A DNA stretch of 39,031 nt from Gemmatimonadales bacterium (GTDB lineage: Bacteria; Gemmatimonadota; Gemmatimonadetes; Gemmatimonadales; GWC2-71-9), in contig DATAOI010000061.1 of NCBI GenBank assembly GCA_036265815.1, positions 1 to 39,031 on the forward strand. Direction: 5' to 3'. Below, in pieces: positions 18,317 to 22,090 of this stretch. Under the pieces are notes generated by a model that worked only from the letters and a program-made list of their open reading frames with translations, had not been told where the DNA came from and ran no database searches. Within the stretch, counting starts at the first letter, position 1, and each line of letters opens with the position of its first letter. The position numbers were made by a program, and so were the translations under genes.

Positions 18317-18520
18317 GGCTGCTCAAGCATGGGTGGCAATGTCGAGAGGTGCTCGCGCTGTCACACGCGGGCTGCTTAGCCTCAGTGGCATTCGTGAGCG
18401 GCCATGTGGTGCTTCGATTGCGTGCTCGCCTATAGCCGCCCTTGCTGGCGCCATCCTACGGCCCCCGCTTACTTACTTTCGCGTTCCTAGTACCGCATCC
18501 TCCCCGCGGAGCCTTCCCCC

Positions 18521-21172
18521 ATGGAAGTGCCGGACTCCGTCCGCCACGCCTTCGCCGACCGCTACGCGATCGAGCGCGAGCTCGGCCGCGGCGGCATGGG
18601 GGTCGTCTACCTCGCCCACGACGTTCGCCACGATCGTCCAGTCGCCCTCAAGCTCCTGCTCCCCGGGTTGGCCGGCGGGGCCCCTGAGCGATTCCAGCGC
18701 GAGATCCGCCTCGCCGCCCGGCTGCAGCATCCCCATATCCTGACCGTGCTCGATTCGGGGAGCGTCGGGACCAGCGAACCCGGCGTGGAGCGGCTGTGGT
18801 ATACGATGCCGTTCGTGGACGGCGAATCGCTCTACGACCGGCTGAACCGTGAGCGCCGGCTCCCGCTGGAGGACGCGCTCCGCATCACGACCGAAGCTGC
18901 CCGCGCGCTGGAGTACGCCCACCAGCACGGCGTGGTCCACCGCGACGTCAAGCCCGAGAACATCCTCCTCACCCGGGACGGCACGACGCTCGTGGCCGAT
19001 TTCGGGATCGCCCGCGCGCTCGACGCCGACGAGCGGCTGACTCGGACCGGCACCCCGCTCGGCTCGCCGTTCTACATGAGCCCGGAACAGACGAACGACG
19101 AAGAGGTGGACGGCCGGGCCGACCAGTACGCGCTGGCGGCCGTGTTGTACGAGATGCTGACGGGCGAGCCGCCGTTCGTCGGGCGGAGCCTCGAGGCGAT
19201 CGTGGCCAAGCGGCTCAGCAATCCGACACCCAGCGCGCGGGCGCTCCGCGACGCCGTACCGCCACACGTGGACGAAGCCATCCGAAAGGCGATGGCCTCG
19301 GCGCCGGCCGAGCGCTTCCCCTCCGTAACGGAGTTCGCCCAGGGGCTGCACCAGCCGCTGAGCGCGACTCCGCCGCCGCAGGCCGCCGCGATGGCCACGC
19401 CAGCGCCGGCGCGACGGAACCCGGGCCGGTCCAGAGCGGCGATGGTCCTGGTGGCCGGGCTCCTCCTCGCCGGAGGAGCGCTGTTCGCCTGGCGCCGGAT
19501 GCACTCAGCCGGCTCGCCTCCGGACCGCGACGCGCCAGTCGTCGCCGTGTTGCCGTTCGACAACCTGGGCGACTCGGCCGACGTGTACTTCTCCGAGGGC
19601 GTCACCGACGAGATCCGGACCAAGCTGGCGCAGGTCGCCGGGATCGAGGTGATCGCGCGCGGCAGCTCGCTCGAGTACCGCCGGACCACCCGCCAGCCCC
19701 GCAGGATCGCGGAGGAGCTCGGCGCCGACTACCTCCTGACTGGCACCGTCCGGTGGGAGAAGGCGGCGGGAGCCAATCGCGTTCGGGTCACCCCCGAGCT
19801 GGTGGACGCGCGCTCGGGCCGGGCGGCGCGCACCCGCTGGGTGCAGCAGTTCGACGCCTCGCTCACCGATGTCTTCCAGGTGCAGGCCGACATCGCGACC
19901 AAGGTGGCCGACGCGCTGGGCGTGGCGCTCGCCGACAGCACCCGGCGCGAGCTCACCACCCGGCCGACCGAGAGCCTCGCCGCGTGGGACGCGTTCCTGA
20001 AGGGCGAGGACGCCGCGCAGGATATGAAGGGTGACCCGTCGAGCCTCCGCCGGGCGGTCGGCTTCTACCAGCGCGCGGTGGCCCTGGATTCCGGATTCGT
20101 GCAGGCGTGGAGCCAACTGTCCCGCGCCAGGACCTCGCTCTATTCAAACGGGGTCCCCGACCCGGCGCTCGGCGACCAGGCCCGGGTCGCCGCGGCGCGC
20201 GCGCGGCGGCTCGGGCCGAAGGATCCGTCGGCCTACCTGGCGCTGGGCGACTACTATGGGAGCGTCAACCCGATCGACAACGCACGGGCGTTGGCCGAGT
20301 ACGAGCAGGGCCTCAAGCTCGCGCCTCGCGACGTCGACCTGCTCGGCGCGGCCGCGATGACCGAGACGAGCCTGGGGCACTGGGACGGCGTGGTCCCGCG
20401 TCTCGCGCGCGCGGCCCAGCTCGACCCGCGGTCCGCCAACGCCGTCCGCCGACTGGTGGGGGTCCACCTCTTTCTCCGGCACTATTCCGCCGCGGACTCC
20501 GCCGCGGATCGGGCCCTCGCGCTCGAGCCCGGCCGTCCCGGCATGGTCTCCCTCAAGGTGATGAGCGCCGTGGGCAGGGGCGATCGCGACAGCGCGCGCG
20601 CGGTGGTGCGTGCGGCCGCGCGACGGATCGATCCCGCGGTGCTCTTCCCCTTCCTCGCGGCCTACCAGGATCTCTACTGGCTATTGGACGACGAGCAGCA
20701 GCGCCTGGTGCTGGCGACTCAGCCGAGCGCCTTCGATGGCGACCGGGGCAGCTGGGGGATAGTGCAGACCGAGCTGCATCACCTGCGCGGTGAGCGCTCC
20801 CTGGCGCTCGCCTATGCCGACTCGGCGCGTCTCGCGCTGGGGGCGCAGAGCCGGGCCGCGCCCGACGACGGGCAGCGCCACGTGCTCCTGGGGCTGGCGC
20901 TGGCATACCTCGGGCGGAAGGCGGAGGCGGTCCGTGAAGGGCGGCTGGGACTGGAGCTCTGGCCGATCAGCCGGGACGCGTACTTCGGCCCGTACGTCCA
21001 GCTGCAGCTGGTGCGGATCTACCTTCTGGTCGGCGAGCCGGAGAAGGCGCTGGACCAGCTCGAGCCCCTGCTCCGGGTGCCGTTCTACCTTTCGCCCGGC
21101 TGGCTCCGCCTGGATCCGACGTTCGACCCGCTGCGGAACGATCCCCGGTTCAAGAGGCTGCTCGAGGATTGA
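18521..21172 (+). CDS. Transmembrane serine/threonine protein kinase with TolB-like and TPR extracytoplasmic region
   Basis: An 883-residue receptor-like kinase. The Hanks kinase domain (residues ~15-280) has GRGGMGVV (22-29), the ATP-anchoring Lys44 in VALK, HRDVKPEN with catalytic Asp142, DFG at 160-162 and SPFYMSPEQ as activation-segment end. A single membrane helix AMVLVAGLLLAGGALFAW (~307-324) separates it from an exported part. That part has a TolB-N/FlgO-like domain (VVAVLPFDNLGDSADVYFSE... through ELGADYLLTGTVRW, ~340-410) and then TPR-like helices to the end. The design suggests sensing outside the membrane and Ser/Thr phosphorylation inside. Its targets are unknown. It lies between intact attC7 and attC8 but is far larger than the other cassettes and is preceded by ~200 bp of possible promoter DNA. 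Confidence 0.92.
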   Translation: MEVPDSVRHAFADRYAIERELGRGGMGVVYLAHDVRHDRPVALKLLLPGLAGGAPERFQREIRLAARLQHPHILTVLDSGSVGTSEPGVERLWYTMPFVDGESLYDRLNRERRLPLEDALRITTEAARALEYAHQHGVVHRDVKPENILLTRDGTTLVADFGIARALDADERLTRTGTPLGSPFYMSPEQTNDEEVDGRADQYALAAVLYEMLTGEPPFVGRSLEAIVAKRLSNPTPSARALRDAVPPHVDEAIRKAMASAPAERFPSVTEFAQGLHQPLSATPPPQAAAMATPAPARRNPGRSRAAMVLVAGLLLAGGALFAWRRMHSAGSPPDRDAPVVAVLPFDNLGDSADVYFSEGVTDEIRTKLAQVAGIEVIARGSSLEYRRTTRQPRRIAEELGADYLLTGTVRWEKAAGANRVRVTPELVDARSGRAARTRWVQQFDASLTDVFQVQADIATKVADALGVALADSTRRELTTRPTESLAAWDAFLKGEDAAQDMKGDPSSLRRAVGFYQRAVALDSGFVQAWSQLSRARTSLYSNGVPDPALGDQARVAAARARRLGPKDPSAYLALGDYYGSVNPIDNARALAEYEQGLKLAPRDVDLLGAAAMTETSLGHWDGVVPRLARAAQLDPRSANAVRRLVGVHLFLRHYSAADSAADRALALEPGRPGMVSLKVMSAVGRGDRDSARAVVRAAARRIDPAVLFPFLAAYQDLYWLLDDEQQRLVLATQPSAFDGDRGSWGIVQTELHHLRGERSLALAYADSARLALGAQSRAAPDDGQRHVLLGLALAYLGRKAEAVREGRLGLELWPISRDAYFGPYVQLQLVRIYLLVGEPEKALDQLEPLLRVPFYLSPGWLRLDPTFDPLRNDPRFKRLLED

Positions 21173-21295
21173 CCCGCTGTCGTGCATCGCCAGGGTTGGA
21201 CAGGGCACCGTCATCTGAGTTCCACGAAGAGGCTAGCTTGAGAGGGTAACGTCGAACGACGACGCTCCGCAGGCCAGCCCTTCGAGGAGCGCCAG

Positions 21296-21397
21296 ATGAC
21301 GCGCCCGCTGCCCGCACTGACTCTTGTATGGTATCTCGCTCTGGTTGGCCTGCTTCGGAACCAACTGAAGCGTCCGCGCAAGAGAGCGCTTAGGTGA
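21296..21397 (+). CDS. Possible 33-residue membrane peptide
   Basis: A GAGGAG Shine-Dalgarno sits seven bases before ATG. The peptide is MTRPLPALTLVWYLALVGLL followed by a basic tail RNQLKRPRKRALR, so one short hydrophobic helix with a positive C-terminus. It lies in the 240-bp gap between the kinase gene and the convergent SnoaL-like gene. No family is recognised; it may be a chance ORF. Confidence 0.3.
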   Translation: MTRPLPALTLVWYLALVGLLRNQLKRPRKRALR

Positions 21398-21412
21398 CGG
21401 CATACCTGCCAA

Positions 21413-21799
21413 TCACCACGAGACGGAATACCTGTCAATCACCCATAGCCACGTCCCATCCTTCTGGCGCCGCGCAACTTCCGAGGTCACGGTACCATCA
21501 CGGCTGCGCGTCGAGGTGAGGGCCAGATCACCGCAAATGAGCGCCGGTCGCTGTTCTCCGAACTCGAACTTTCGTTTTTCCGGTCCAAACCCCGTAACCT
21601 GGAGTTTCGTAAAAAACTCGTGAGTGGCCTCTTTGCCACGCAGGAACGTTCCACCGCCAATGTCGACTACCGCGTCCGGCTCGAACAACGCCGTCATGCC
21701 AGTAACATCTCCCGCGTTCTCTCTCGCTACCAACAATCGCTCCAAATCCTGGGGATCGTTGGCCGGCCCTCTTGTCGTTAAATCATTCACAGTGGACAC
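21413..21799 (-). CDS. SnoaL/NTF2-like protein, reverse-oriented in the array
   Basis: A 128-residue protein of the NTF2-like/SnoaL superfamily: DLERLLVARENAGDVTGMTA, LFEPDAVVDIGGGTFLRGKE, ATHEFFTKL, LALTSTRSRDGTVTSEVARR and WLWVIDRYSVSW follow the fold's cone-shaped pocket pattern. The open frame extends to 22018, but the upstream part is not family-like. GTG at 21799 after GGCGGAGT is preferred, placing the start just before the first helix. It is the only clear minus-strand gene in the cassette array and lies in DNA that is less GC-rich (21.8-22.07 kb upstream of it). This points to a different origin from its neighbours. The function is unknown. Confidence 0.72.
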   Translation of the reverse strand: MSTVNDLTTRGPANDPQDLERLLVARENAGDVTGMTALFEPDAVVDIGGGTFLRGKEATHEFFTKLQVTGFGPEKRKFEFGEQRPALICGDLALTSTRSRDGTVTSEVARRQKDGTWLWVIDRYSVSW

Positions 21800-22090
21800 T
21801 CCGCCAACTTTTGTGGGTTGCCGACCTTCACTGCAGTCTATCGTCGTCACGCGCCGGGCGTCAAAAGCAGCTCTTGGCCTGAGGGTTTTGGACCGTTCCT
21901 CGATCAAGTCTTCGTCCCAAACAGAATGGGCTTTGAATGGCCGGTTGAGGTTCAAAGCACTATGTTCGAGAATCTTGTCCCGCTTTTTCGGATGCTCGGA
22001 TTTCTCAAGAACACCCATGCTTCATCAATCAGAAGTGCTTTGCGCCGATTTGGGTGGGTTAGAGAGTATCTCCGGGGTCCGAAAGTCGCC

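Follow-up and report, generated by a model that had tools for sequence, protein, structure and literature searches.

A kinase-bearing segment between two attC sites

The window—the 39,031-nucleotide stretch of DNA analyzed here, which is contig C61 of a 4.59 Mb draft MAG in 119 contigs—carries on its forward strand an array of nine full attC sites spanning 12165 to 23060, with starts at 12165, 12732, 13459, 15265, 16939, 17560, 18178, 22091, and 22924. A segment from 18317 to 22090 lies between the seventh and eighth of these, attC7 (18178–18316) forming its left boundary and attC8 (22091–22227) its right. First-pass annotation of the sequence described both sites as intact and bracketing the segment, a description that held up. 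The two share an orientation and have almost identical arms; the 32-base attC left arm is present five times (0.00 expected by chance) and the attC right arm nine times (0.47 expected); and the bottom strands of attC7, with its arm repeats, and of attC8 fold strongly as single strands into attC hairpins. Single-strand folds of two other array sites are no better than shuffles. The consensus fold of the nine sites contains 24 pairs, five with changes on both sides, and has the R/L-arm hairpin of attC, with unpaired bases in one arm. A covariance model built from the nine aligned sites, R1, scores attC7 at 134.3 bits and attC8 at 125.6 bits, values that come from its own training rows and are not independent. 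The arm variant common to attC7 and attC8 was discounted as evidence of recent duplication, the spacer GGTGC being present in other attC sites too. No hidden third attC dividing the segment was found: with filters off, the R1 scan returns nothing better there than a 33-base hairpin at 14.3 bits.

To the right, an apparent split attC (23433–24096, forward strand) extends the array to 24096. Its two halves lie on either side of a 193-aa ORF (23484–24065), an arrangement that suggests insertion of a gene into the variable loop. Degenerate or half attC sites also occur outside the main array, at 26120–26218 (28.5 bits) and 33384–33430.

The segment opens with a 204 bp leader (18317–18520, forward strand) running from attC7 to the kinase start, for which no DNA relatives were found among the loci compared. 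Promoter DNA had been suggested for the unit, a suggestion not borne out by a sigma-70 scan, which finds no sigma-70-like promoter. The other contents are as first annotated: a 2.65 kb kinase gene, a 33-residue ORF, and a minus-strand SnoaL-like gene. The Ser/Thr kinase (18521–21172, forward strand) is an intact frame of 883 aa. Next comes an intergenic stretch (21173–21412) that includes the 33-codon ORF (21296–21397), which has neither a family match nor relatives. The SnoaL_2-like gene (21413–21790, reverse strand) is antisense to the array and encodes ~125 aa if a GTG start is assumed; its protein scores 31.3 bits in Pfam against a cut-off of 27. No insertion scar, and no repeats besides the attC arms, were found at the segment.

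The kinase protein combines a PknB-type domain (residues 15–265; PF00069 at 149 bits, cut-off 31.7) with C-terminal TPR matches. Read by eye, the GxGxxG, VALK, HRDxKPEN, and DFG motifs are intact, and one apparent TM segment lies at ~306–324. The nearest solved chains are of PknB, with 3f61 matching at E = 5e-53 over residues 11–295. The protein resembles PknB-type receptor kinases in its kinase domain, its catalytic motifs, and the single apparent TM segment that follows, but it differs in lacking a PASTA-type score—NF033483, the PASTA-kinase model, reaches 285 bits against a cut-off of 450, with the match limited to the kinase domain—and in having C-terminal TPR matches instead. By analogy, it would act as a membrane-anchored receptor of the PknB type, with a cytosolic kinase domain and an exported TPR-bearing region, and would phosphorylate Ser/Thr targets.

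A known type of array with an atypical cargo

Chromosomal integrons and CALINs, clusters of attC sites without an integrase, have been reviewed, and integrons in Gemmatimonadota have already been reported (PMC8618304). CALINs are defined by at least two attC sites <4 kb apart (PMC9668308). The window array classes as a CALIN: no integrase gene was found adjoining it, its attC sites share an orientation, cassette genes lie between them, and the largest spacing is 3,913 bp start to start. What sets it apart is that one 3.91-kb interval, which holds a large receptor kinase of host-core codon use, whereas intervals in related arrays are typically 0.68 kb. The element itself is of a familiar type; it is the kinase cargo that is unusual.

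Typical cassettes had been put at under 1 kb, and so they are: across 320 same-strand neighboring intervals in the loci compared, the median attC-to-attC spacing is 678 bp and the 99th percentile 3,822 bp, about where the kinase interval falls. Its exceptional size has to be qualified, however. Four of the 320 intervals measure at least 3,900 bp, three of them larger than that of the kinase, although some intervals are inflated by missed attC sites. Other cassettes of the window array reach 1.67 and 1.81 kb, and another large interval in the family contains transposases. Large intervals of two genomes from different genera, G015 and G054, have in common a ~3.4-kb (3.46-kb) block, 74% identical, that ends at attC-like arms and encodes an ABC ATPase, a 544-aa protein without a Pfam match, and an esterase-like ORF (8103–11543 of locus L199, G054:C2; ~3440–6878 of locus L128, G015:C51). 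This block is a recurring large cassette, and multi-kilobase units are not unique to the window. Like the kinase segment, it is multi-kilobase, has high GC3, and ends at attC arms; unlike the kinase segment, which was seen once, it recurs in two genera.

Arrays of attC sites are present in 57 of the 102 family genomes (R1, E <= 1e-7). One of these arrays, in G002:C62 (locus L115), is uniform save for a single reversed attC at 11433–11572. The same-genus genome G002 has, on contig C144, a full-length IntI (418 bits) with attC sites next to it. Both findings lend the window sites support that does not depend on their own R1 scores, and place the array in an integron system common in its family. 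In the source genome itself (G000), no complete IntI was found in an assembly that may be incomplete, the match covering profile positions 225–315 only. Its sole strong integron-type integrase match, on contig C82, covers a C-terminal fragment, after which come a short ORF and attC sites at the contig end (12190–13496 of locus L075, G000:C82:30000-43495); this genome's integrase thus seems to be truncated. Further attC sites lie on contigs C9, C30, and C26.

Cassette traffic is suggested by the neighbor of the kinase segment. The DUF1428 cassette body (17702–18177, forward strand) lies left of attC7, and a 400 bp part of it (17726–18125) matches, at 90% identity, DNA from within an attC array in a different genus, G012:C108. 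Across the same two genera, the closest kinase to that of the window shows 69% DNA identity; the disparity argues that cassette DNA moves. The body itself reads as a sign of recent transfer between genera, judged from sequence.

A kinase of the host lineage

The source genome has 113 Pkinase matches, so chromosomal kinase DNA is abundant. When kinase phylogeny and codon use were compared, as had been proposed at first pass, both pointed to the host. The best match of the window kinase in the 102 family genomes is a paralog on contig C19 of its own genome, at 66–67% identity, and a tree of 31 rows joins the pair as sisters (support 100/100). The genomes that hold its closest relatives are mostly Gemmatimonadota MAGs; one further contig (L064), labelled Thermoleophilaceae and possibly misbinned, encodes a kinase like those usual in the Gemmatimonadota set. 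The kinase has a GC content of 0.72 and a core-like GC3 of 0.908. GC3 is 0.63–0.81 in genes of the array, and two core genes of the flanks give 0.855 and 0.914; several further rows of the codon-use table, which were out of frame, were left aside. Because its sister paralog lies in its own genome and its GC3 is core-like, the kinase is, on sequence grounds, of the host lineage and host-chromosomal in type. Branch lengths of 0.42 for the window kinase and 0.22 for its paralog make the former about twice as diverged, which points either to an entry some time ago or to a source in a relative outside the sample. At the DNA level, the kinase is 72% identical to its nearest paralog, with homology to paralogs confined to the coding region.

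Sequence around the kinase is less readily traced. Neither the SnoaL gene nor the segment flanks have close relatives among the 102 family genomes, and a kinase-free version of the cassette was therefore not found. The best match to 21173–22090 in the 101 other family genomes is 25 bases only, and none of these genomes has the same attC neighbors, so no relative displays an exact gain or loss of the segment between attC cores. Flank GC is 0.64 on the 5′ side of the kinase and 0.62 on the 3′ side. Since this lies within the range for the flanks of other chromosomal kinases, the junctions carry no compositional mark, and a composition jump was ruled out as proof of insertion.

In turn, loci of kinase relatives contain no attC save for one marginal match, and none was found in the 19 kb around the C19 paralog (L077). 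Among the array and flank loci examined, no other kinase lies between two attC sites, and the window case is single. Kinases do lie just outside arrays at five loci (L109, L117, L218, L220, and L229); proximity as a pattern was set aside, none being between sites and kinases being frequent in these genomes, and these cases may be chance. A literature search for cassette-borne Ser/Thr kinases found no relevant paper.

How the kinase may have come to lie in the array

We favor, at a probability of about 0.57, the reading that a kinase of the host's large STK-TM-TPR receptor family came to lie in an integrase-less attC array, giving it a 3.91-kb, one-cassette format. Recombination or capture would have placed a chromosomal copy of the kinase between attC sites. 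Given an integrase in trans, attC7 could be joined to attC8 and the segment freed as a circle. In favor of this reading are the same-orientation attC bracketing with nothing attC-like inside, the C19 sister and its attC-free surroundings, the core-like GC3, the abundance of host kinases, the lack of any other kinase between attC sites in the loci examined, and relatives that share the left flank but have neither kinase nor attC there. Against it are the junctions unmarked by composition, the missing insertion scar, a SnoaL gene and flanks with no close relatives, and the longer branch of the window kinase. The first-pass annotation had offered a large mobile cassette or chromosomal DNA inserted between cassettes as alternatives. 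Each was right in part, the format being that of one cassette and the kinase host-chromosomal in type, but the choice between them dissolves, since chromosomal DNA that attC sites bracket could in principle be cut out as a cassette.

A second account, possible though we think it rather doubtful, is that kinase and SnoaL gene were formed elsewhere as one large cassette and inserted here by an integrase. Segment boundaries that are attC cores, the movement of the adjacent DUF1428 body between genera, and the recurrence of large units in the family, as seen in G015 and G054, are all consistent with such travel. Yet no second copy of the segment was found in the 102 family genomes, and both the closest kinase, the host's own paralog, and the host-core-like codon use tie the gene to its present genome.

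It is improbable that the kinase is instead a chromosomal resident, with cassettes inserted off-target at both sides. The genome is rich in kinases, and in relatives several are found close outside arrays, as this account would have it, but the relatives examined offer no such resident. The left-flank genes (9062–10108 and ~10823–11173) recur in G008:C148 and G001:C226; other genes come next there, and neither kinase nor attC was found beside them. A tblastx match at the G001 locus was ruled out as a kinase, since the ORF resembles an NhaA-type antiporter and a tblastn search that used the kinase as query returned nothing. The arrangement named at first pass as telling against a cassette, a relative with the kinase locus in this position but no flanking attC sites, was accordingly not seen. 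On the right, the flanking gene, which we take to be YaiI-like, lies on attC-bearing contigs in G002 and G005, and a further five genomes of the genus showed no attC close to it; none of the relatives examined has a kinase near it. Residence would, moreover, require that cassettes went off-target twice and still restored an unbroken array of uniform orientation. An assembly or binning artefact fusing chromosomal kinase DNA with array DNA, conceivable in a 119-contig draft where kinase paralogs abound and attC sites are repeated, is very improbable, as both junctions would need to be false and a nearest paralog only 72% identical in DNA leaves no near-identical repeats to collapse.

A broader reading is that integron arrays of this group take up host signaling receptors and transporter operons several kilobases long as single cassettes, that receptor kinases spread in this way by site-specific recombination, and that part of the kinase expansion is thereby explained. 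We regard this reading as unlikely. If the segment is mobile, integrons could carry multi-domain membrane receptors, far beyond their usual one small gene, and host signaling genes could be mixed between species. Even as captured chromosomal DNA and nothing more, the segment illustrates how host genes may enter cassette arrays, and bears on the question of where cassettes originate.
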